A stretch of 64,000 bases of DNA. Source: Neorhizobium galegae bv. officinalis. GTDB taxonomy: Bacteria > Pseudomonadota > Alphaproteobacteria > Rhizobiales > Rhizobiaceae. The notes beneath the pieces were generated by a model that made no database searches, was not told the DNA's origin, and saw only the letters and a list, made by a program, of their open reading frames with translations. How positions within the stretch are numbered: the first letter of the stretch is position 1; each line of letters opens with the position of its first letter. Positions 1 through 30,588 of this stretch are shown here, in pieces. A program made the translations under genes and the position numbers. The stretch spans positions 186,001 through 250,000 of the forward strand of contig CCRI01000012.1 in the NCBI GenBank assembly GCA_000985875.1, written 5' to 3'.

Positions 1-314
1 CTCGAATAACCGCCGCGGTCGGCCTGTATGGCACCACCGATGATGGCACCGGCGCCGAAGGCGGCGAGCGGGAACCAGAACCCGTTGTGATAACGGTAGC
101 CCGACCGGCGGTCACGATAACCGCGGTGGCCGCGATACCAGCCATAACGGTCACGCCGGAAGTCGCGACGGTACTGGACATTGGTGATATCGCCGGCGGC
201 CGAAATGCCGGACGGCGGCGCTGGCATTTGGACAGCCTGCGCCGGGACGACACCGGCAAACATGGTGGCGACGGCAACTGCCGCTGCCGTCAAGCGCAAA
301 CGAAGAGCATTCAT
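1..314 (-). CDS. BA14K family secreted protein, 3' end cut by window edge
   Basis: About 104 codons are visible, starting at the ATG at 314. The N-terminus is a typical signal peptide ([27 protein letters not shown]) with an Ala-x-Ala cleavage site. It is followed by an Arg/Tyr/Gly-rich stretch ([20 protein letters not shown]) and a hydrophobic Gly/Ala segment ([15 protein letters not shown]). This layout matches the BA14K/lectin-like proteins of Brucella and rhizobia, which are envelope-associated and of unclear role. A second ATG lies 2 codons later. The stop codon lies outside the window, so the C-terminal BA14K motif itself cannot be checked. It runs in the same direction as the Rieske gene upstream, 98 bp away. 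Confidence 0.75.
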
Positions 315-412
315 CCTGGGCGTTTCCTCATTCTGATTTTCAATGAGAAAACAACGCCGGATGTGAGATTCCGTTCCTGGCAGAGCGCCCGGCACGGATC
401 ACGACTTGGCGA

Positions 413-1657
413 TCAGGCGACGATCGAAAGTTGCGCCTGGTCGCCCTGCAGCCGGTTGACCATGAAGTTCGAATACCATTCGACGAACTGCATGACGCCG
501 CCCTCGTGGAGCGCCGAATAGGGACCCGGCTCATAGGCGGGCGAGCGGATGCCGAACGCGTTTTCCTCGACGATCTGGCGGTCCTGATCATTGGTCATGT
601 TCCAGACATGGGTCAGTTCTTCGAGATTGTAATCGACGCCCTCGACCGCATCCTTGTGGACCAGCCATTTGGTGGTGACCGCCGTTTCCTCCGGCCCGAG
701 CGGAGTGACGCGGAACGAGATCGCATGGTCGCCGAGAATGTGGTTCCAGGTGCTGGGATAATGGAAGAGCAGCATGGTGCCGATCGAGTTGATCGTCACG
801 TCGTCGGAGAGTTTGCGCTGCACAGCGTTGCGGCCGCTCATCGTATAACTCTCGGCATCCTCGATCAGCGGCATGCGCGCGACGCGGAACTGGCCGGTCT
901 CGTCCATCCGGAACTCGCTCGGCAAACCCGCCTCCTCGCAACGCTGCCAATGGGCGGCGATGACCGGATCGTCCTTGGCGCCCTGGACACCGGTCGCGGT
1001 CGGCGATTCCGGATAGGTGCGGCAGAGTTCCGGGTGGTTGGCGGCACAATGGTAGCACTCGCGGTTGTTTTCCCAGACGAGCTTCCAGTTGCCCTTCTCG
1101 ATGATCGTCGACTGGTGGGCGACCTTGGCTTCCGACAGGCGGTGCGGGGCCATATAGGGTTCGATCGCTGCGCGAACGGGGGCGAAATCCGGTGCCTCGT
1201 TGGCAAGGCAGATGAAGATATAGCCGGCGACGCTCTCGCAATGGACCTTCTTCATGCTGAACTGGGTCTTGTCGAAATCCTGCCCCATCTGGCGGCCGAC
1301 CAGAAGCGAGCCGTCCAGCTCGTAGGTCCATTGATGGTAGGGACAGACAAGCCGGACCGCCGAACCATGTTCCTTGGTGCAGACGCGGCTGCCGCGATGG
1401 CGGCAGGTATTGTGCAGCGCCCGGATCTGGTTGTCGCGGCCGCGCACGACGACGATGGGATAATCGCCGATCTGCAGGGTGAAATAGGCTCCCGCCTTGG
1501 GCAGCTCGCAATCATGTCCGACGAACAGCCAGTCGCGATACCAGATCATTTCCAGATCGAGCTTGTAATAGGCGGGATCGGTGTAGAAGGGCTGTTCGAG
1601 GCTGAAGCCTTCGCGGCGGTTCTTGAGCTGCCGCAGGGCCTGATTGCGAATTTCCAT
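413..1657 (-). CDS. Rieske aromatic-ring-hydroxylating-type oxygenase alpha subunit, GbcA-like
   Basis: The 414-residue protein has an N-terminal Rieske [2Fe-2S] domain with ligands C85, H87, C105 and H108 (CxH...CPYH). A C-terminal catalytic domain carries the mononuclear iron motif ENNRECYHCAANH, giving His203 and His208, and a likely acidic third ligand near NDQD in the last quarter. Length and sequence resemble glycine betaine monooxygenase GbcA and stachydrine demethylase, which remove N-methyl groups with O2 and electrons from a partner reductase. No GbcB-like reductase gene is next to it. It starts at an ATG with AAGGA seven bases upstream. A cobalamin riboswitch lies in the leader, so expression probably rises when B12 is scarce. 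The exact substrate is inferred only from family resemblance. Confidence 0.85.
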   Translation of the reverse strand: MEIRNQALRQLKNRREGFSLEQPFYTDPAYYKLDLEMIWYRDWLFVGHDCELPKAGAYFTLQIGDYPIVVVRGRDNQIRALHNTCRHRGSRVCTKEHGSAVRLVCPYHQWTYELDGSLLVGRQMGQDFDKTQFSMKKVHCESVAGYIFICLANEAPDFAPVRAAIEPYMAPHRLSEAKVAHQSTIIEKGNWKLVWENNRECYHCAANHPELCRTYPESPTATGVQGAKDDPVIAAHWQRCEEAGLPSEFRMDETGQFRVARMPLIEDAESYTMSGRNAVQRKLSDDVTINSIGTMLLFHYPSTWNHILGDHAISFRVTPLGPEETAVTTKWLVHKDAVEGVDYNLEELTHVWNMTNDQDRQIVEENAFGIRSPAYEPGPYSALHEGGVMQFVEWYSNFMVNRLQGDQAQLSIVA

Positions 1658-1764
1658 ATTATCTTCCTTGTCAATGTGGACAGCGGAAGGACATGGAAAT
1701 GCCGGTCGGCCTCAAGGCCTACCCAACACCCTGTCCCGAACGCCCGCCGCGTCCGGTCGTCATT

Positions 1765-1970
1765 TTTGATCCCGAGGCTGGTTTCCGGGCTCAGGAGCTT
1801 GTCCCTTGGGGGACCGGCTCGGCGCCTTCCCGGGCGGCCGTTACGGCTCTTTCCCAGTGGCTCATGCCGTGCCTTGTTGCTCCACCACCGTTGCGGGGGC
1901 AGCGCCGGATTAGGGTTTCTAAAGACCCCTGCCGGCTTCCCAATTCTCCGCCTTCCCTAGTCAGGCGACA
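1765..1970 (-). promoter_or_regulatory. Cobalamin riboswitch in the leader of the Rieske oxygenase gene
   Basis: Read on the minus strand, the block contains the conserved cobalamin-aptamer pieces in order: GGGAAGCCGG near 1945, AATCCGGCGCTGCCCCCGCAAC near 1910-1885, GAGCCACTG near 1863-1855, GGGAAGGCG near 1833, and AGCCCGGAAACCAGCC near 1790-1776. A GC-rich 8-bp stem (1736-1743 with 1749-1756) follows, but it has no U run. A CUUCC in the leader could pair with the GGAAG of the ribosome site, so control is more likely translational than by termination. The downstream gene on this strand is the Rieske oxygenase at 1657. Boundaries are approximate. Confidence 0.92.
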
Positions 1971-2155
1971 CCTCAAGATCGAGGCGGATATAATCATCGA
2001 GCGAGCGTGTCGCATAGGCGACATTGCGACATCGGCAACCGCGTTGGCGACAGCGGCGAAACGGCCCAGAATGCAACACTCCAGCCCCGCGAAAGCGAAA
2101 CCAGTCATTAAGGGATAAGCCATAAAATCCCGGCTCGAATGGGAGCGATGCCACC

Positions 2156-2770
2156 GTGCAGGCCAAGGGAAAGATTCGTTATTACAAAGCTCCTCCGCCA
2201 ACGCCTCCGGCGCCGGTGGTGATGAAGACTGCTGCCCATTCCGAATTCCTCCGGACGGGGCGCATCGCCCGCTACAATCCGGTCTGGCTGCCGGAAGAGC
2301 GCCGCTATCTCACCCATGAAGAGGTCGCCGAGCGCACCGGCAAAAGGCTCGAGGCAGCCGGGGAAACGAGCCACAACCGGATCAACTCCTTCCATCGCTC
2401 GATCCAGTTTCCGAAGATCATCTTTCACCACACGCTCGATGAGCGGCCGCATCTCGGCTATTGCCATGTCACCGCGGCAAGAACGTTTCTTCCACGCGGC
2501 ATCCCTGTGAGCTGGTCGTTCTATATCGCCAACTTCTTCTCCAAGATCGGCGAGGAAGAAACGTTCTTCGAGCATATCAGCCCGGCCTATTCCCGCATGT
2601 ACTTTGCCGTTGCGGTCGAACGCGAGGCCGATCAGCCGCTGAAGATCAACCGCACGATCCGCAAGAACGGCCTCCTGTTCCAGACCAACGATCCGATGGA
2701 AGCGGTCAAGAACGTCCTGATGCTCGGCACTTCCAACGAAATGCTCCGCGAGATCATCAAAAAGCTTTGA
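2156..2770 (+). CDS. Conserved hypothetical rhizobial protein
   Basis: The protein has 204 residues and starts with GTG, with GGGAG ten bases upstream; the first in-frame ATG is codon 23. It has no signal peptide or membrane segment. The N-terminus is proline-rich (PPPTPPAP), and the rest is a mixed alpha/beta-looking soluble domain with many Arg, His and aromatic residues, e.g. RPHLGYCHV and FFSKIGEEETFFEH. Codon use matches the surroundings, so it is very likely a real gene. I do not recognise a functional family; it may belong to a DUF restricted to Rhizobiales. The gene lies 34 bp before tsaC and may be co-transcribed with it. Confidence 0.75.
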   Translation: MQAKGKIRYYKAPPPTPPAPVVMKTAAHSEFLRTGRIARYNPVWLPEERRYLTHEEVAERTGKRLEAAGETSHNRINSFHRSIQFPKIIFHHTLDERPHLGYCHVTAARTFLPRGIPVSWSFYIANFFSKIGEEETFFEHISPAYSRMYFAVAVEREADQPLKINRTIRKNGLLFQTNDPMEAVKNVLMLGTSNEMLREIIKKL

Positions 2771-2803
2771 ACACGCCCGGGTCCGCGTTATTGACGGGCG
2801 GAT

Positions 2804-3781
2804 ATGACGGCTCAAATCATCGACATCACCGGGGATCACGACGGCGCGCTTGCCCAAGCCTGCGCCGTCCTTGCGGAAGGTCTTCCCGTGGCGATCCCGA
2901 CCGAGACGGTCTACGGACTTGCGGCGGATGCCACCAATCCCACCGCCATCACCCGCATCTATGAGACCAAGGGCCGGCCGCGCTTCAACCCGCTGATCTG
3001 CCACATGTCGGATCTCGAGATGGCCGAGCGCTATGCCGACTTCGATCCCATCTCGCGAAAGCTTGCTAGAGCCTTCTGGCCGGGTCCGCTGACCCTGATC
3101 CTTCCCCTGAAGCCCGAAAGCGGCATTCATGCGCTGGCGACGGCCGGGCTCGATACGGTCGGCATCCGGCTTCCCAAGGGCTTCGCTTCGGAACTCATCC
3201 GTGCCTTCGGCAAGCCGCTCGCGGCCCCCAGCGCCAATACGTCCGGCAAGGTGAGCCCGACCAGCGCGCGCCACGTGGCCGACGACCTGGGCGACAAGCT
3301 GGCATTGATCATCGACGGCGGCGCGGCTCCTGTCGGTGTCGAATCGACCATCGTTCGCGTCGAGAACGGAGTGATCCGGCTGCTGAGACCGGGCGGGGTA
3401 GCCGCAGAGGATATCGAGAAGGCAACCGGCCTTGCCGTGATCCGGCCGGAGGGACCGGCGGCGATCATCGAGGCTCCCGGCATGCTGGCCTCTCATTATG
3501 CGCCGGGAGCAGCGGTGAGGCTCAATGCCGACCATGTCGAGACCGGCGAGGCGTTGATCCGGCTCGGTTCCGCTCCGGTAAAGGGAATGGAGCTCGCCGC
3601 AGCGGTTTTTGACCTCAGCCCGTCCGGCGACCTTGCGCAGGCGGCGGCAAACCTGTTCGATTACCTGAAACGCGCCGACGCCACCGGCGCCGCCAGCATC
3701 GCCGTCACGCCCATTCCCGACCATGGGCTCGGCGAGGCGATCAATGACCGGCTGGCGAGGGCGGCCGCCCCGCGGGAATAG
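2804..3781 (+). CDS. L-threonylcarbamoyladenylate synthase (TsaC/Sua5)
   Basis: The enzyme makes threonylcarbamoyl-AMP from threonine, bicarbonate and ATP, the first step of t6A37 modification of ANN-decoding tRNAs. The YrdC domain covers about residues 10-200, with TETVYGL at 33-39 and the RNA/ATP-binding KGRPRFNPLICH at 56-67. SANTSGKVSPTSA is also present. After a linker, the C-terminal Sua5 domain is recognisable by GMLASHYAPG near residue 226. At 325 residues it is the long Sua5 form, not the short TsaC form. The ATG is preceded by a GGCGG-type site. The FAD dehydrogenase starts 27 bp downstream on the same strand. Confidence 0.93.
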   Translation: MTAQIIDITGDHDGALAQACAVLAEGLPVAIPTETVYGLAADATNPTAITRIYETKGRPRFNPLICHMSDLEMAERYADFDPISRKLARAFWPGPLTLILPLKPESGIHALATAGLDTVGIRLPKGFASELIRAFGKPLAAPSANTSGKVSPTSARHVADDLGDKLALIIDGGAAPVGVESTIVRVENGVIRLLRPGGVAAEDIEKATGLAVIRPEGPAAIIEAPGMLASHYAPGAAVRLNADHVETGEALIRLGSAPVKGMELAAAVFDLSPSGDLAQAAANLFDYLKRADATGAASIAVTPIPDHGLGEAINDRLARAAAPRE

Positions 3782-3807
3782 CCGGGGCAAAAGACGAGGA
3801 GACGCTG

Positions 3808-5253
3808 ATGGACATTCCAGGGCCGAAACCAGAACTTCTCGACCGCTTCGCGGCGATCGTCGGCGAGAACCACGTCCTGCGCGACGCGAACGATCTTGCA
3901 CCGCATCTGGTCGAGGGCCGCGGGCTCTACAAAGGTTCTTCGCCTATGCTCCTGAAGCCGGGCTCGGTCGAGGAAGTCTCCGCGATCCTGAAGCTTGCAA
4001 GCGAGACCGGCACGCCGATCGTGCCGCAGACCGGCAATACCGGCCTCGTTGGGGGACAGACCCCGCGCACCGGCGGCAGCGACCTGATCGTGTCGCTCGA
4101 ACGGATGAACCGCATCCGGGACGTCGATCCGGTCGCAAACGTGCTGGTCGCCGATGCCGGCGCGATCCTTGCCGACGTCCAGAAGGCGGCGGAAGCCGTC
4201 GACCGGCTGTTTCCGCTGTCGCTCGGCTCGGAAGGGTCCTGTCGCATCGGCGGCAACCTTTCCACCAATGCCGGCGGCACCGCCGTGCTCGCCTATGGCA
4301 ATACCCGTCAGCTCTGCCTCGGGCTCGAAGTGGTGCTGCCGACAGGCGAGATCTGGAATGGCCTGCGCCAGCTCAAGAAGGACAATACCGGCTACGACCT
4401 GCGCGACCTGTTCATCGGCGCGGAAGGTACGCTCGGGATCATTACCGGTGCGGTGCTGAAACTTTTCCCCCAGCCGGTCGGGCACCAGGTGGCACTTGCA
4501 GGCATCAATTCGCCTGAGGATGCGCTGAAACTCTTCGAGCGGGCCTCGAACCTCTGCGGCACGGCGCTCACCGGTTTCGAGCTGATGCCGCGCATCGGCA
4601 TCGAGTTCGTGACCCGGCATATAGACGGCGTGCGCGATCCGCTCTCCGAGCCGCATCCGTGGTACGCGCTGATCGACATCTCGACTTCGGATTCTGCCGA
4701 GACCGCCAGTTCCATGGTGCAGTCGCTGCTCGAACAGGGTTTCGAGGCGGGCCTGATCCGCGACGCCGTGATCGCCTCCTCTGTCGCCCAGCAGAAGGCA
4801 CTCTGGCACATGCGCGAAAGCATGTCCGACGCCCAGAAGCCGGAAGGAGGGTCGATCAAGCACGACGTGTCGGTGCCCGTCTCGAAAATCCCGAGCTTCA
4901 TGGCAGAATCCGAGCAGGCGGTGCTGGCGGCCATGCCGGGCGCCCGGGTCTGCGCCTTCGGCCATCTCGGCGACGGCAACATCCACTACAATATCTCGCA
5001 GCCGATCAGCGCCGACATGGCCGCCGACAAGGCGGCCTTCATCGGCCGCTGGCGGGAAATCAACGCGATCGTCCACGGCATCGTGTTCGCCGCCGGCGGG
5101 TCGATTTCGGCCGAACACGGCATCGGCCAGTTGAAGCGCGACGAGCTTGCCCATATCCGCTCGCCGATCGAGATGGACCTGATGCGGCGCATCAAACAGG
5201 CGTTCGATCCGGCGGGCATCATGAACCCCGGCAAGGTAGTGGCCATTCCATGA
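3808..5253 (+). CDS. FAD-linked 2-hydroxyacid dehydrogenase (D-2-hydroxyglutarate/D-lactate dehydrogenase type)
   Basis: The protein has 481 residues. An FAD-binding type 4 (PCMH) domain spans roughly residues 35-220, with PQTGNTGLVGGQTPRTGG and GGNLSTNAGGT. The C-terminal FAD-oxidase domain contains FGHLGDGNIHYN and SAEHGIGQLKRDEL, which carry the metal- and substrate-binding residues of the GlcD/D2HGDH family. Members oxidise D-2-hydroxyglutarate, D-lactate or glycolate and pass electrons to a flavoprotein or quinone. The sequence does not settle the substrate. SAxHGIGxxK and single-polypeptide architecture favour D-2-hydroxyglutarate dehydrogenase over GlcD with separate GlcE/F. GAGGAG lies seven bases before the ATG. 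Its stop overlaps the start of the next gene. Confidence 0.9.
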   Translation: MDIPGPKPELLDRFAAIVGENHVLRDANDLAPHLVEGRGLYKGSSPMLLKPGSVEEVSAILKLASETGTPIVPQTGNTGLVGGQTPRTGGSDLIVSLERMNRIRDVDPVANVLVADAGAILADVQKAAEAVDRLFPLSLGSEGSCRIGGNLSTNAGGTAVLAYGNTRQLCLGLEVVLPTGEIWNGLRQLKKDNTGYDLRDLFIGAEGTLGIITGAVLKLFPQPVGHQVALAGINSPEDALKLFERASNLCGTALTGFELMPRIGIEFVTRHIDGVRDPLSEPHPWYALIDISTSDSAETASSMVQSLLEQGFEAGLIRDAVIASSVAQQKALWHMRESMSDAQKPEGGSIKHDVSVPVSKIPSFMAESEQAVLAAMPGARVCAFGHLGDGNIHYNISQPISADMAADKAAFIGRWREINAIVHGIVFAAGGSISAEHGIGQLKRDELAHIRSPIEMDLMRRIKQAFDPAGIMNPGKVVAIP

Positions 5254-5630
5254 GCCAGCCGTCGAAGACCACGATCCGGATCGACCTCGACAACGGCGTG
5301 CGGCTGGGTCCGGGCAAGGCGCAGCTTCTGGAACTCATCGCCGAGCATGGCTCGATCCGGGCGGCAGGCGCCTCGATCGGCATGTCCTACCGGCGGGCAT
5401 GGCTGCTTGGCGACGAAATCAACCGGATGTTCAAGGAGCCGTCGATCTTTACCCGCCATGGCGGGAAAAGCGGCGGGGGGGCGGGCCTGACCGAATTCGG
5501 CCAGGAACTGTTGTCCCGCTACCGGAGGATGGAAAAGGCGAGCCGAGAGGCGATGCGGGCAGATCTCGACTGGCTCGAATCGAACGCCGATCCGCGCTTT
5601 GAAACGGCCGACAAGAGCGACGACGCCTGA
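5250..5630 (+). CDS. ModE-like winged helix-turn-helix regulator, DNA-binding domain only
   Basis: The 126-residue protein starts at the ATG that overlaps the dehydrogenase stop (ATGA at 5250-5253), so the two are translationally coupled. The N-terminal helix-turn-helix contains LLELIAEHGSIRAAGASIG and SYRRAW, followed by a glycine loop (GGKSGGGAGL) and TEFGQELLSRYRRME. This is the N-terminal ModE layout. The molybdate-binding Mop/TOBE domains of full-length ModE are absent. Such short forms are annotated as LysR-type or ModE-like molybdenum regulators. Coupling to the dehydrogenase suggests local control, but no ligand domain is present to say what it senses. Confidence 0.85.
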   Translation: MSQPSKTTIRIDLDNGVRLGPGKAQLLELIAEHGSIRAAGASIGMSYRRAWLLGDEINRMFKEPSIFTRHGGKSGGGAGLTEFGQELLSRYRRMEKASREAMRADLDWLESNADPRFETADKSDDA

Positions 5631-5646
5631 GGAGACCGGTTCGCTC

Positions 5647-8238
5647 TCAGCTCATCCTGATCTGGGACAATGCCCACAGGGTATCCGAGCTGATGCCGGC
5701 CGAACCGCCGCCGCCGCTCATGATGCTGACCGCCGATGGCGTGTTCACGCTGTTCTCCAGATCGTACATGATCGTGAAGCGCTGCACCAGTTTCCTCACC
5801 TTTTCCGGATCGGCAAGGTCTTCGAGATCGAGCTTGCTCTCTACTATCTTGGCCTGCCGGTCGACATCCATATTGCCGATTTCGGCGGGCAGGCTGTAGG
5901 TGACGCGGAAGAACTCCATCAGCGCCTCGTCGCCGAGGATCACGTAAGGATCGGTGATGCTGTCGGACATGCGCTCGAAATACAGCGCGAGGCGGACGCC
6001 CGGATTTTCCTCGCCCTGCTGGGTTTCGAGCATCTGGCGGACGTAAAGGTCCTGGGTCGCCACGACCTCGCCGCCGTTCTGGGCCTCGCCTGCCGAGCTG
6101 CGGTCGATCTCGCCCTTGGAATCGAAATTGAATGTTCCGACGATCTGCGCAAACCGCTTGTCCGTCTGGGTATTCACGAAGCTCTCGGGATCGGCGGGAT
6201 CCGAGTTGAAGGCCTGCTTCAGGAAGTCATCGGTGACCGTCGAAGGGTCTATCCCCTTGGAGATCAGCAGGATGTCCAGCGTCTTGCGGTCGGCGAGCAG
6301 CTCGTCGCGGCTGCCGATACGCTGCATCGCGTCAGTATAATATTTCGCCTCGGTCTGGGCTTTCGCCCTGGCCGCCTTGAGTTCGTCGCCTTCCATGAAC
6401 CGGCTTTGGCGCAGGATATAGTCCTTGGCGACATTGGTGATCGTGGCATTTGACTGGAGCAGCACCTGCCGCGTGACGCCCCCTTTTGTGTCGAAGTTGA
6501 AGAACTTGGCAAGCGAGACGAAGCGCTCATCGTTCAGCTTGTAGATATAGCTGTTCGGATCGGAAAGGTCGCTTTTCAGGGCATTTTTGATCGTCAGTTT
6601 CGAAACGGTCGCCGGGTCTAGCCCGACCGCTTCCAGCGCGAAAACCAAGGAGTCTTCGGCATCCTTGCTCAGGAAATCGTCGAGCGTCTTCACGGCCGTC
6701 AGGTCGAGCTTGTAGAACTTGATGGCCTTCTCGAGATCCGCTTCCTGCTTGTCGTCCCAGCGGCTCATATAGTTGCTGCGGGTGGAGCTGGTCTGCAATT
6801 CGTCCTGGGCCTGGCCGGCGGCGACGGTACCGTCCGTATTGAAATTGAAGGCCTTCGCCAGCTCCAGATATTCCGGATTGGTATCCCCAAAGCGGTTCGC
6901 ATAGCTGTCCGGATCGGAGAGGTCGCTCGTCAGGATCTGTTCGATCGTCGATTTCACGACCGTGGCCTTGTCGAGATTGAAGGCGACCCTGATATATTTG
7001 AGAAGTCGCGGGTCGTCTATGAAGTCGCTGACATTGTCCGCCGTCTTGAGCTCCTGCTCGAAGAGCTCCTGATTGAACATCGCCTCGGCATGCGTGATAC
7101 GGGTCTGCTTGTTGAAGAAGCCGCCGACAATCTCAAGCAGCTTTTCGGGAGTGACCGCGCCGCCTGCCGGCACCGAGCCGTCCGCATTGAACTTGAAATC
7201 CTCGGCAAGCGATTTCATCAAGCCGAGATAGGGCGCATCGGACGCCCCGGCGGCGATGAGTTTTGCAAGCTCAGCGCGCCGCTCGGCCGTCTGGGCGAGC
7301 GGCACCAGCCGCCCATCCAGCTCGGTGTAGCGTGTCTGCGATGTGGCGAGGGTGGTCTGGTCCCTCTGGATCGCCTCCACCGTTTTTGTCAACTCCACCT
7401 GCATGGCGTCGATCTGGGACTGGATTGCCGCGGGATCGCTGCTGCCGGGCAATTCAGCCTGCTTGGCGGCGATCTGGGTTTCGAGATCGGTCTTCTTCTG
7501 CTGGCCAAGCGTGATCGAGTCCTGCAGAGCAGGAATGCCTGTACTGAGGCTCAGCCGCTCGGCAAGCTCACTGTCCTCGGTTTTCACCGCATTATACTGG
7601 TTGAGGGTATTGCCGTAGGCGGTATTGTAGAAGCTCGTCGGGTCGGCCGGATCGCTCACCAGCACGCCGCGGATCGCATTGTAATTGTAGTATTTCGTAT
7701 CGATGCCATAGGCAGTGAACAGATAGTCGCGAAGCCTGGGATTGGCCAGCAGCTGATCGACATTGGTGATATGGCCGGCCTCGCCCAGCATCACCTTGAA
7801 ATAGCGGGTGTCGGCCTCGAGCGTATCGTTCTGGGCGGCGATCGTCTGGTCATAGGTATCGAAGAGTTCCTCCATCTGCCCATTGGACTGGGCGGCGGCC
7901 CCTTCTCCGTTGGAAACGCCGAAATTGAAGGCTGCTGCGATATTCTGATATCGATCGTCAGTCAGGCGGTTCGCGAAGCTGTTGTCGTCGCTGAGATCGC
8001 TTTCCAGCACCTGCTTCATGAACGCCTTGGCGTAGATCATGTCGTCCAGGCCGTGGGCCTGCATCGCATAGGAATAGAGACGATAGTTGTCGAGGAACTC
8101 ATCGACCGTTTTTATCTTGCCGATATTTTCCTGGTAGTACTTCGCGTCATTGACGACCATCGTCTGCCCAGCGATCGTCTTCAGGCTTTTCTGCATGTCG
8201 CGATTGACAAGATCGAAGGTGAGATAGGTCGATACCAC
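5647..8238 (-). CDS. Large multi-repeat DUF1217 protein
   Basis: The likely start is the GTG at 8238, giving MVSTYLTFDL as in other rhizobial DUF1217 proteins; a 12-codon upstream extension to 8274 is possible. The 863 residues hold six copies of a roughly 80-100 residue unit, each with a pattern like IKTVDEFLDNYRL..YAM, then a (D)LSDP(N)SY/FANR stretch, then AFNFD. A Gln/Ala/Glu-rich coiled-coil segment of about 100 residues separates repeats 2 and 3. Family members occur near flagellar genes in rhizobia and are thought to be flagellum-associated, but the role is not established. Here it stands alone with no flagellar genes nearby, convergent with the ModE-like gene (16 bp apart). Confidence 0.88.
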   Translation of the reverse strand: MVSTYLTFDLVNRDMQKSLKTIAGQTMVVNDAKYYQENIGKIKTVDEFLDNYRLYSYAMQAHGLDDMIYAKAFMKQVLESDLSDDNSFANRLTDDRYQNIAAAFNFGVSNGEGAAAQSNGQMEELFDTYDQTIAAQNDTLEADTRYFKVMLGEAGHITNVDQLLANPRLRDYLFTAYGIDTKYYNYNAIRGVLVSDPADPTSFYNTAYGNTLNQYNAVKTEDSELAERLSLSTGIPALQDSITLGQQKKTDLETQIAAKQAELPGSSDPAAIQSQIDAMQVELTKTVEAIQRDQTTLATSQTRYTELDGRLVPLAQTAERRAELAKLIAAGASDAPYLGLMKSLAEDFKFNADGSVPAGGAVTPEKLLEIVGGFFNKQTRITHAEAMFNQELFEQELKTADNVSDFIDDPRLLKYIRVAFNLDKATVVKSTIEQILTSDLSDPDSYANRFGDTNPEYLELAKAFNFNTDGTVAAGQAQDELQTSSTRSNYMSRWDDKQEADLEKAIKFYKLDLTAVKTLDDFLSKDAEDSLVFALEAVGLDPATVSKLTIKNALKSDLSDPNSYIYKLNDERFVSLAKFFNFDTKGGVTRQVLLQSNATITNVAKDYILRQSRFMEGDELKAARAKAQTEAKYYTDAMQRIGSRDELLADRKTLDILLISKGIDPSTVTDDFLKQAFNSDPADPESFVNTQTDKRFAQIVGTFNFDSKGEIDRSSAGEAQNGGEVVATQDLYVRQMLETQQGEENPGVRLALYFERMSDSITDPYVILGDEALMEFFRVTYSLPAEIGNMDVDRQAKIVESKLDLEDLADPEKVRKLVQRFTIMYDLENSVNTPSAVSIMSGGGGSAGISSDTLWALSQIRMS

Positions 8239-28214: not shown

Positions 28215-29081
28215 TCACAGGCCGTAGCGGCTCCACATTGCCTTTTCTTCCAGGCTCGCGGCAAGTCCCGTGACCGCGCCTGCGGCGATTTCTCCGGCCT
28301 TGCCCTCGCCGAAGACGACGCCGGGCACGCGGCGGCCGAACAGGGTGCGGGCGCTGCCGATCAGTTCCAGCTTCGTGTCCTTGCCATAACGGCGCTTGAG
28401 GACTTCGCGCATGTCGCCGAGACTGTCGATCAGGCCGAGATCGAGGCCTCGCAATCCGCTCCAGAACAGGCCGGAAAAGATCGTCGCGTCATCGGCCAGC
28501 CGCTCGCCGCGGCGCATCTTGACCATCTCGATGAACACATTGTGGATTTCGAGCTGCAGGGCCTTCAGGTATTCGATGTCGCCTTCCTTTTCCGGCTGGA
28601 AGGGATCGAGGATCACCTTGTTTTCACCGGCGGTATAGACGCGGCGCTCGACGCCGATCTTGCGCAGCAGTTCCGGGAAGCCGAAACCACCGGAAACGAC
28701 GCCGATCGACCCGACGATGGAGGTCGGGTCGGCAAAGATCTCGTCGCCGGCGAGCGCGATCATGTAGCCGCCCGAGGCCGCGACATCCTCGACGAAGACC
28801 AGGACTTTCTTGTCCTTTTCTTCCGCCAGCGAACGGATGCGCTGGAAGATCAGGCGCGACTGGACAGGGGAGCCACCCGGCGAATTGAGCGAGATCGCAA
28901 CGACCGGCGCATCTTTCTTCGAAAAGGCCTTTTCGAGCATCGGTGCAACGCCGGCGAGGTTGAGGCTCGGCTTGAACTGGCTGCCGCCGGCCATGATCGC
29001 CCCGTGAAGCCGGACGACGGGTATCGTCAGCCCCTTCTTACGGAACCTTTTCGGCGTCAACCTCTGCAAAAACCCAGCCAT
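28215..29081 (-). CDS. sppA: S49-family signal peptide peptidase
   Basis: The preferred start is ATG 29081 (MAGFLQRLTPKRFRKKG) with GGAAAAG upstream, giving 288 residues; a frame back to 29156 is less likely. The ClpP/crotonase-like fold is visible: PVVRLHGAIMAGG, NSPGGSPVQSRLIFQRI, the catalytic Ser in DVAASGGYMIALAG, and GSIGVVSGGFGFPELLRKIG. It would degrade leftover signal peptides or membrane proteins at the inner membrane. No clear membrane helix is seen, so it may associate through the small membrane protein encoded downstream. It is divergent from mntH. Confidence 0.9.
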   Translation of the reverse strand: MAGFLQRLTPKRFRKKGLTIPVVRLHGAIMAGGSQFKPSLNLAGVAPMLEKAFSKKDAPVVAISLNSPGGSPVQSRLIFQRIRSLAEEKDKKVLVFVEDVAASGGYMIALAGDEIFADPTSIVGSIGVVSGGFGFPELLRKIGVERRVYTAGENKVILDPFQPEKEGDIEYLKALQLEIHNVFIEMVKMRRGERLADDATIFSGLFWSGLRGLDLGLIDSLGDMREVLKRRYGKDTKLELIGSARTLFGRRVPGVVFGEGKAGEIAAGAVTGLAASLEEKAMWSRYGL

Positions 29082-29179
29082 TTCTTTTCCTTCTGTCGCG
29101 TTCGGCTCTGCCAAAGCATGTATGTGACGGATTTTCAAACGCAATGGCTGCCCCACTTAAAGCAGGGTTTTCATTTTCC

Positions 29180-29220
29180 AGTTGCGAATGACTTGCATTA
29201 TCATTCCAACTGCGCATTAT
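29180..29220 (+). promoter_or_regulatory. mntH promoter with an overlapping metal-regulator-type palindrome
   Basis: The -35 CTTGCA (29192-29197) and -10 CATTAT (29215-29220) are separated by exactly 17 bases. They match the rhizobial housekeeping consensus CTTGAC-N17-CTATAT reasonably well. An inverted repeat, GAATGA (29186-29191) and TCATTC (29201-29206), extends outward with one bulge to AGTTG/CAACT and covers the -35. A GATAAT-like core on the complement recalls Fur/Mur sites. In rhizobia, manganese uptake genes are repressed by the Fur homologue Mur. A site here would block RNA polymerase when manganese is ample. Confidence 0.65.
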
Positions 29221-29247
29221 CGCTCTCGCGAACGGAGATAGGCAAAG

Positions 29248-30588
29248 ATGGACGTTTTGGGTTCGAAGCAGGACAGCGGCTGGCGGAACAAGCGCGGAGA
29301 GGCATCGCTCTCCGACGTCCATCGCAGTATCAACATCTCGCACTCCGGATCGCGATGGCGACGGCTCGCCGCCTTCGCGGGTCCGGGTTACCTGGTCGCG
29401 GTCGGCTACATGGATCCCGGCAACTGGGCGACCTCGCTCGCCGGCGGATCGAAATTCGGTTACGCGCTGCTCGCGGTCGCACTGCTGTCCAACCTGATGG
29501 CGATCGTGCTGCAGTCGCTCTGTGCGCGTCTTGCCATCGCATCGGGCCGAGACCTCGCGCAGGCCTGCCGCGACGCGTTCCCGAAATGGGTTTCCATTCC
29601 GCTCTGGGCGCTTGCCGAAATCGCCATCATCGCCACGGATATCGCCGAGGTGATCGGCACAGCGATCGGTCTCAACCTGATCTTCGGCATCCCCCTGGAG
29701 CTCGGCGTGCTGATCACGGCTCTCGACGTCTTCATCATCCTTTACCTGCAGAAGATGGGCTTCCGATGGGTCGAAGCCTTCATCATCACCCTGCTCGGCG
29801 TCATTGCCGTGTGTTTCGCGATCCAGATCTTCCTTGCCGATCCGCAGTGGGGCGGCGTCATCCGCGGTTTCTTCCCGACGACCGAGATCGTCACCAATCC
29901 GGAGATGCTCTATCTGGCGCTCGGCATTCTCGGCGCGACCGTCATGCCGCATAACCTCTACCTGCATTCCGGCATCGTGCAGACCCGCAACTATGGCCAC
30001 ACCCTGCCGGAAAAGAAAGAAGCGCTAACCTATGCGACGATCGACTCCACCGTCGCGCTCTGCTTCGCGCTGTTGATCAATGCCTCGATCCTGATCCTTG
30101 CGGCAGCCGCCTTCAACAGTACCGGGCGGACCGAGGTAGCCGAACTCGGCGAAGCGCATTCGCTGTTGGCGCCACTTCTCGGGCTTGCCATCGCACCGAC
30201 GCTGTTCGGGATCGCCCTGCTCTGCTGCGGCCTGAATTCGACCGTGACCGCGACGCTCGCCGGCCAGATCGTCATGGAGGGCTTCCTCAAGATGAAGCTG
30301 CCGCCATGGGTCCGCCGCCTCATCACCCGCGGGATCGCCATCATTCCGGCCGCGTTCGTGACCATATGGTACGGCGATGCGGGCACGGCGGAACTGCTGA
30401 TCCTCACCCAGGTCGTGCTCAGCCTTCAGCTTTCCTTCGCGGTCTTTCCGCTCGTCATGTTCACCGCCAGCAAGGCCAAGATGGGCGAACTCGTGGCGCC
30501 GATCTGGCTCTCCGGCATCGCCTGGCTGATCGCCGTCGTCATCGCCGGCCTCAACGTCAAGCTGCTGATCGATTTCGTTTCGGGCTGA
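29248..30588 (+). CDS. mntH: Nramp-family proton-coupled manganese transporter
   Basis: The 446-residue inner-membrane protein imports Mn2+ (and some Fe2+) with protons. About eleven membrane helices are visible. The Nramp signature DPGN lies in [15 protein letters not shown] (TM1) and the TM6 metal-binding MPHNLYLHS is intact, so it should be functional. The ATG is preceded by CGGAGATAGG. The upstream palindrome suggests manganese repression. Its 3' end overlaps the convergent trmN6-like gene by 32 bp. Confidence 0.96.

Follow-up and report, generated by a model that had tools for sequence, protein, structure and literature searches.

A cobalamin aptamer precedes a Rieske oxygenase gene

The window analysed here is a stretch of 64,000 nucleotides from Neorhizobium galegae bv. 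officinalis (contig CCRI01000012.1, positions 186,001 to 250,000). On its minus strand it carries a gene for a Rieske oxygenase, and the following features were located in that gene and its leader:

413..1657, minus strand: Rieske non-heme iron oxygenase of the group Vb type (GbcA/Stc2-like), 414 aa, from Pfam, NCBIfam, structures and motifs
1652..1698, minus strand: predicted hairpin (fold) enclosing the ribosome-binding site and start codon, a candidate expression platform
1663..1669, minus strand: putative ribosome-binding site, 5 nt 5′ of the start codon, read from the sequence
1736..1756, minus strand: hairpin with a G-rich loop directly 3′ of the aptamer, from the fold and also found in aligned relatives
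1759..1990, minus strand: cobalamin riboswitch aptamer RF00174, 90.8 bits, full model
1776..1792, minus strand: B12 box, 0 mismatches to the scan pattern, at -135 from the start codon
1890..1903, minus strand: conserved aptamer motif on the L5/P6 side, matching the scan pattern with 0 mismatches, at -246 from the start codon

A preliminary description of this DNA had placed a cobalamin aptamer in the minus-strand leader of a GbcA-like oxygenase gene and proposed a search of that leader against RF00174. The search bears this out. The match at 1990..1759 on the minus strand scored 90.8 bits (E 3.3e-22), well over the gathering score of 31.5, and spans the whole model (1-189 of 189). It is the only gathering-level Rfam match in window positions 1..6000. 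The coordinates first given, 413..1970, located both the aptamer and the gene, but the aptamer extends 20 nt past 1970. The spacing between the aptamer and the start codon of the oxygenase is 101 nt. The hairpin at 1736..1756 is a candidate partner of the C-rich aptamer loop, with which it may form a kissing loop, a known feature of other cobalamin riboswitches. B12 riboswitches are found on genes for cobalamin synthesis and uptake and on those for two B12-independent isozymes, and a GbcA-like gene is, as had been noted, an unusual client.

Two further observations concern the surroundings of the gene. A DUF6656 protein is encoded at 2156-2770 on the plus strand of the window, divergent from the riboswitch, and a DUF6656/Sua5/FAD-oxidase neighbourhood adjoins the oxygenase gene in several relatives. 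Moreover, a 509-aa frame lies opposite the oxygenase gene (431-1960, plus strand) and was assumed to be a shadow frame.

The client is a group Vb Rieske oxygenase

The oxygenase is built of a Rieske domain (PF00355) and a Ring_hydroxyl_A domain (PF00848). It keeps the Rieske ligands CxH...CxxH as well as the bridging Glu, the Cys pair and two His (motifs 85-108 and 200-208), and its Asp lies within NDQDRQ, from 356. Moreover, reading of the sequence places Asn198 two residues ahead of Glu200. In the accessible part of the literature on this group, an Asn in place of the aromatic residue of group Va marks clade Vb, carnitine and choline oxygenases have the aromatic residue at that position, and clade Vb takes N-methyl groups off glycine betaine and proline betaine (PMC7948474). 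The window oxygenase has the residues of a group Vb betaine N-demethylase and, judged by them, probably removes methyl groups from betaines.

Against the GbcA equivalog model NF058607 the oxygenase scored 517 bits, under the cut-off of 670, and the oxygenases of two relatives, G017 and G389, scored 524 and 505 bits. The earlier term 'GbcA-like' is therefore apt as far as the match goes, but 'GbcA' itself is unproven, since the cut-off was missed. The nearest solved structures are 3n0q (559 bits) and 3vca (about 525 bits in a full-length alignment). The latter, together with 4qup, we take to be the stachydrine demethylase Stc2, with which the oxygenase shares the iron-site motif; its nearest solved structure is 3n0q rather than 3vca. 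The host genome, which is Neorhizobium-like, encodes one full-length Rieske oxygenase of the GbcA-like type, and the best named match of this protein comes from N. vignae (99% over the protein).

The reductase is missing from the host genome

A GbcB-like ORF is found no more than 1.6 kb downstream of the oxygenase gene in 139/170 loci, that is 101/110 loci with the leader aptamer and 38/60 without it. On the GbcB model, whose cut-off is 500 bits, the reductases of two relatives reached 379 and 360 bits. No such ORF follows the window oxygenase gene, and a GbcB query at E <= 1e-20 retrieved no homologue from the host genome or from G140; a GbcAB system, which takes a GbcB encoded in the genome, is thus not what the host has. 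The downstream reductase is also missing at L013, L014, L042, L043, L044, L046, L076 and L078, as it is at 22 loci that have no aptamer, including those of Rhizobium leguminosarum and its kin. The oxygenase had been described as lacking its reductase; this holds for the host genome but does not define the unit, given the 139/170 loci with a GbcB-like ORF. The missing reductase is a derived loss in the host's clade and in some others.

Comparison of the window oxygenase with five of its reductase-less Neorhizobium-type relatives gave dN/dS values of 0.03-0.11. Therefore, the oxygenase still looks selected, and if active it needs another electron donor.

Other cobalamin aptamers and an mtg cluster in the host genome

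RF00174 has five matches in the host genome, of which the oxygenase leader scores lowest. Two lie back to back between the cob cluster and the CbtA-CobO genes; within the cob cluster CobG was confirmed (TIGR02435, 273 bits, cut-off 235), whilst CobW and CobN were read from the sequence. Another precedes a nitroreductase-family gene, which was taken for BluB. On host contig C13 (L008, 4879-8397, minus strand) an aptamer of 125.6 bits is followed by a [2Fe-2S] thioredoxin-like/weak CbiX gene and further by genes for a family 5 binding protein and permeases, making this a candidate operon for cobalt or corrinoid uptake.

Outside the window, in L229, lies the single PF06253 (MttB/MtgB family) gene of the host genome (768 bits). 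It belongs to an mtg cluster that further encodes B12-binding domains (a two-domain corrinoid protein), a Pterin_bind methyltransferase, an S-methyl_trans homocysteine methyltransferase, a RACo-type reactivator and DUF1638, and a gene for a glycine-betaine-type binding protein (OpuAC) lies in the same stretch. The corrinoid protein scored 211 bits on the MtgC model NF047996, under its cut-off of 370. The cluster matches the MtgBCDE gene set, namely MtgB, a corrinoid protein, methyl-folate and homocysteine methyltransferases and a reactivator. In the available portion of its description, MtgBCDE is a system of aerobic bacteria that depends on cobalamin to demethylate glycine betaine and also makes methionine (Mausz et al. 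2025, PMC12478193).

The leader aptamer is widespread

Aptamers in other genomes were called by motifs within 600 nt upstream of the oxygenase gene. Rfam was run on 31/170 of the Rhizobiaceae loci, where RF00174 matched 7/7 of the aptamer-positive and 0/24 of the negative leaders (L063 and L066 included). Among the matches listed, the aptamer lies 5′ of the oxygenase gene in 85/120 Rhizobiaceae genomes (orthologue identity 66-100%), 83 of these being motif calls and two, L017 and L032, full aptamers found by Rfam (68.8 and 112.5 bits). Across 80 named loci it is present in 41, absent in 36 and in pieces in 2 (L063, L066); at L047 the upstream DNA is too short for a call. In the host's order outside Rhizobiaceae, 11/21 genomes with an oxygenase homologue have the leader aptamer, and outside the order it occurs at 7/13 sampled loci, down to 48% identity. 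As it is present within the family, within the order and beyond, the association of aptamer and oxygenase reaches across Alphaproteobacteria. The comparison of orthologous leaders suggested at the outset had a divided outcome: 110/170 carry the aptamer but 60/170 do not, and 53 of the latter are also without PF06253.

Aptamer and PF06253 are inherited together

We tabulated the leader aptamer against PF06253 in 170 Rhizobiaceae genomes (among the matches listed). Both were present in 106 and neither in 53, with the aptamer only in 4 and PF06253 only in 7, so that PF06253 is found in 106/110 aptamer-bearing versus 7/60 aptamer-less genomes. Two subsets were also counted. In 120 Rhizobiaceae genomes the figures were 81 with both, 33 with neither, 4 with the aptamer only and 2 with PF06253 only. 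In 50 named genomes, whose loci had been chosen as 25 with and 25 without the full aptamer when their PF06253 status was not yet known, PF06253 is present in 25/25 with the aptamer and 5/25 without. The set of 170 omits G245 (a match with two in-frame stops), 30/80 named loci, 8 outgroup homologues of 53-57% identity with no aptamer by motif, and homologues near 45%. The 21 genomes of the host's order outside the family comprise 11 with both, 7 with neither, 3 with PF06253 only and 0 with the aptamer only; here PF06253 is present in 11/11 aptamer-bearing and 3/10 aptamer-less genomes (Fisher p 0.001 for 19 of the 21 genomes).

Kinship inflates such tables and hence we applied tree-aware tests. 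These used a FastTree of the oxygenase in lieu of a species tree, and are weaker for it. On this tree each of the two traits changed at least 12 times. Nine independent pairs differed in the aptamer, and in these PF06253 differed in the same direction in 6.1 on average, in the opposite direction in 0 and not at all in 2.9 (median p 0.03, range 0.016-0.125). Moreover, a dependent-rates model fitted the oxygenase tree better (LR 56.8, 4 degrees of freedom), with either trait lost faster once the other was gone. These computations show the aptamer and PF06253 to be co-inherited.

A general loss of B12 regulation from the aptamer-less genomes was considered and rejected. RF00174 was found in 72/72 genomes checked, and all 35 of these without the leader aptamer have it elsewhere (1-6 matches each); B12 regulation as such has therefore not been lost there. 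In the same 72 genomes MetE was not linked to the leader aptamer, being present in 8/35 without and 7/37 with it (p 0.78). In the family and in the rest of the order, the aptamer-led oxygenase is accompanied by PF06253, the proposed B12-dependent counterpart family. Since the aptamer tracks PF06253, the oxygenase is most simply read as a cobalamin-free counterpart of the MttB/MtgB route.

Exceptions and decaying leaders

PF06253 occurs without a leader aptamer at L060, L062, L063, L079, L084, G102 (L184) and G174 (L179) within the 170 genomes, and at G528 (L242), G556 (L251) and G576 (L250) within the 21. Rfam found RF00174 in none of these ten leaders (seven of the 170, three of the 21). In Rhizobium freirei (L063) and R. 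lusitanum SEMIA 4060 (L066) the aptamer core, some 130-240 nt ahead of the oxygenase gene, is deleted, and the leaders keep the 5′ flank (both flanks), the B12 box and the hairpin that follows it. The whole aptamer is present in R. lusitanum Opo-234 (L045) and R. tropici (L073). The genomes of these last two have two PF06253 each (best 763 bits), that of R. freirei has one of 587 bits and that of SEMIA 4060 none.

In genus g94 the aptamer occurs without PF06253 in all 4 genomes. Two conserved motifs of its leaders each carry a single base change, and the aptamers of two members score 58 and 61 bits in Rfam. From their sequences, the g94 aptamers look to be decaying.

A proposed switch between two routes of betaine demethylation

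There was no terminator-like site in 1600..2250. The stretch after the aptamer, 1758..1645, has a fold z-score of -3.2 and places the ribosome-binding site and start codon within a hairpin. Predicted pairing of the ribosome-binding site averages 0.74 in 125 aptamer leaders versus 0.54 in 70 leaders without, a difference confounded by base composition and kinship. Swap tests gave no sign of co-evolution between ribosome site and anti-site, as 720/2000 swaps reached the observed value for contiguous stems (60/125 distinct aptamer leaders) and 559/2000 did so for duplex energies (70 leaders). The leader likely acts as a translational OFF-switch.

We propose the following sequence of events. With enough cobalamin the aptamer would fold and the ribosome-binding site would be masked, so that the oxygenase is not made. 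The corrinoid route encoded by the mtg cluster would then demethylate the betaine, most likely glycine betaine, and would involve MtgB/MttB, the corrinoid protein MtgC, MtgD, the RACo-type reactivator and the homocysteine methyltransferase MtgE/Bmt. When cobalamin runs low the switch would open and the Rieske oxygenase would strip the methyl group using O2 and reducing power, a route that would spare or replace B12. We consider it likely, with some reserve, that the leader is a cobalamin OFF-switch which exchanges the corrinoid route and the Rieske oxygenase for betaine demethylation; we infer the OFF direction and the shared substrate.

Gene neighbourhoods lend support to betaine as the substrate. 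In G389 the aptamer-gbcA-gbcB unit adjoins a PF06253 gene and a gene for an FAD/GcvT-type dehydrogenase of the dimethylglycine/sarcosine kind, which scores under the cut-offs of the curated models. In G395 gbcA-gbcB adjoin metH.

Other neighbourhoods held additional cobalamin aptamers. In L255 (G406) a second one (6414-6618, minus strand, 136 bits; L243:813-1017) points the opposite way and faces a LysR-family gene, behind which a methionine synthase is encoded in split form (S-methyl_trans, then Pterin_bind/B12-binding/Met_synt_B12 genes). A B12 riboswitch on what appears to be a regulator-metH unit is odd. In L256 (G492) an aptamer at about 7689-7886 on the plus strand is divergent from the gbcA unit and lies ahead of a gene for a TonB-dependent receptor. 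This is probably btuB, which would put the oxygenase and B12 uptake back to back under two switches.

Alternative explanations

The oxygenase and the PF06253 enzyme may instead use different methylated compounds, for example proline betaine and glycine betaine, in which case the switch would change the diet of the cell when B12 runs short and would not exchange enzymes for a single substrate. The oxygenase falls under the GbcA cut-off and is close to 3vca; moreover, PF06253 is a broad family with many substrates, of which many genomes carry several copies. However, the host has a single PF06253 gene and therefore one corrinoid partner remains there, and this lone gene clusters with OpuAC and the homocysteine methyltransferase. 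As the neighbours in G389 also suit a single betaine pathway, we regard separate substrates as unlikely.

It had been suggested earlier that, under B12 scarcity, demethylation of a betaine may supply one-carbon units or methionine. Here, formaldehyde would pass into folate-bound one-carbon units, with no part played by a corrinoid route for betaine. The gene probably encodes a demethylase, the host genome has no MetE, and the adjacent metH in G395 would suit such a role. However, this leaves the co-occurrence with PF06253 without a reason, and the presence of MetE does not go with the aptamer (8/35 without versus 7/37 with it). The link to B12 scarcity is retained in our reading, but methionine supply fits poorly with the p of 0.78 for MetE and with the products of GbcAB, which are dimethylglycine and formaldehyde in the accessible part of the source (PMC12478193). 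We think this explanation improbable.

A third possibility is that the host unit is a relic, its reductase gone, its enzyme idle and its aptamer in the course of being lost. The GbcB query retrieved no reductase from the host genome, and the aptamer is the lowest-scoring of its five. Against this, the aptamer matches the full-length model, and both aptamer and gene are kept in six reductase-less Neorhizobium-type relatives (L013, L014, L042, L043, L044, L046), with the dN/dS of 0.03-0.11 applying to five of these six; a relic is therefore very unlikely. Lastly, cobalamin riboswitches mostly control cobalamin genes, and the oxygenase could work in cobalamin synthesis, standing in for example for CobG, the oxygen-using step of the aerobic pathway in the available part of PMC8123684, but we give this almost no credence as the active-site residues fit betaine N-demethylases, and a stand-in is rejected for the host genome, which has CobG in its own cob cluster (TIGR02435, 273 bits > 235).

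Relation to known systems and significance

The arrangement proposed here, a cobalamin OFF-switch between corrinoid and Rieske routes, has a precedent in metE, which is under a cobalamin riboswitch in bacteria that also have MetH, following the logic of a B12-independent isozyme. As with metE/MetH, a B12 aptamer precedes a B12-free enzyme and the B12-dependent counterpart is encoded in the same genome; G189 offers a case of the former, with a cobalamin aptamer directly 5′ of metE (C7:28404-28609 and 28738-29700). Unlike metE, the client here is a catabolic oxygenase that resembles its proposed counterpart neither in sequence nor in chemistry; it consumes O2 and yields formaldehyde and no folate-bound methyl group.

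GbcAB is the glycine betaine monooxygenase of Pseudomonas and Chromohalobacter, according to the accessible parts of PMC12478193 and PMC7948474. The host oxygenase resembles it as a group Vb Rieske oxygenase, and a GbcB-like reductase usually comes next in relatives; it differs in its score (517 bits versus the cut-off of 670), in the cobalamin aptamer of its leader and in that no reductase was found in the host genome. The proposed partner of the switch, the host mtg cluster, matches the gene set of MtgBCDE (in the available portion of PMC12478193). There, GbcAB and MtgBCDE are presented as distinct routes, each belonging to different bacteria, and the paper contains the word 'riboswitch' once, in a reference on a glycine riboswitch. 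Neither PMC8123684 nor PMC4239095 mentions a Rieske-oxygenase client in the parts that were accessible. Moreover, no report of a riboswitch-led Rieske or betaine client was found in the open-licence literature (titles and abstract starts), a scope that takes in no B12 regulon survey from the early 2000s. We rate the riboswitch-controlled, B12-independent counterpart as a known principle, and the client and partner as new.

If the aptamer is deleted or decays once the corrinoid enzyme is lost, then a genome that has the switch should have the second route as well. On balance we lean towards a wider claim, that across Alphaproteobacteria the riboswitch toggles betaine demethylation between the corrinoid and the Rieske routes as a third widespread B12-dependent/independent pair, in osmolyte catabolism, and that the aptamer is lost or decaying where the corrinoid enzyme is gone. 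In industrial B12 production betaine is fed to 'Pseudomonas denitrificans' and Sinorhizobium meliloti, as stated in the accessible part of PMC8123684, and the switch may matter there should the producer strains carry the unit. If true, the pair would stand beside MetH/MetE and NrdJ/NrdAB, and it would link the supply of a vitamin with how a very common osmolyte is turned over. B12 would also be tied to the fate of the methyl groups, which would be either kept on folate or released as formaldehyde. This reading makes a concrete prediction that applies to many genomes, and it may explain why both routes are kept by some bacteria.
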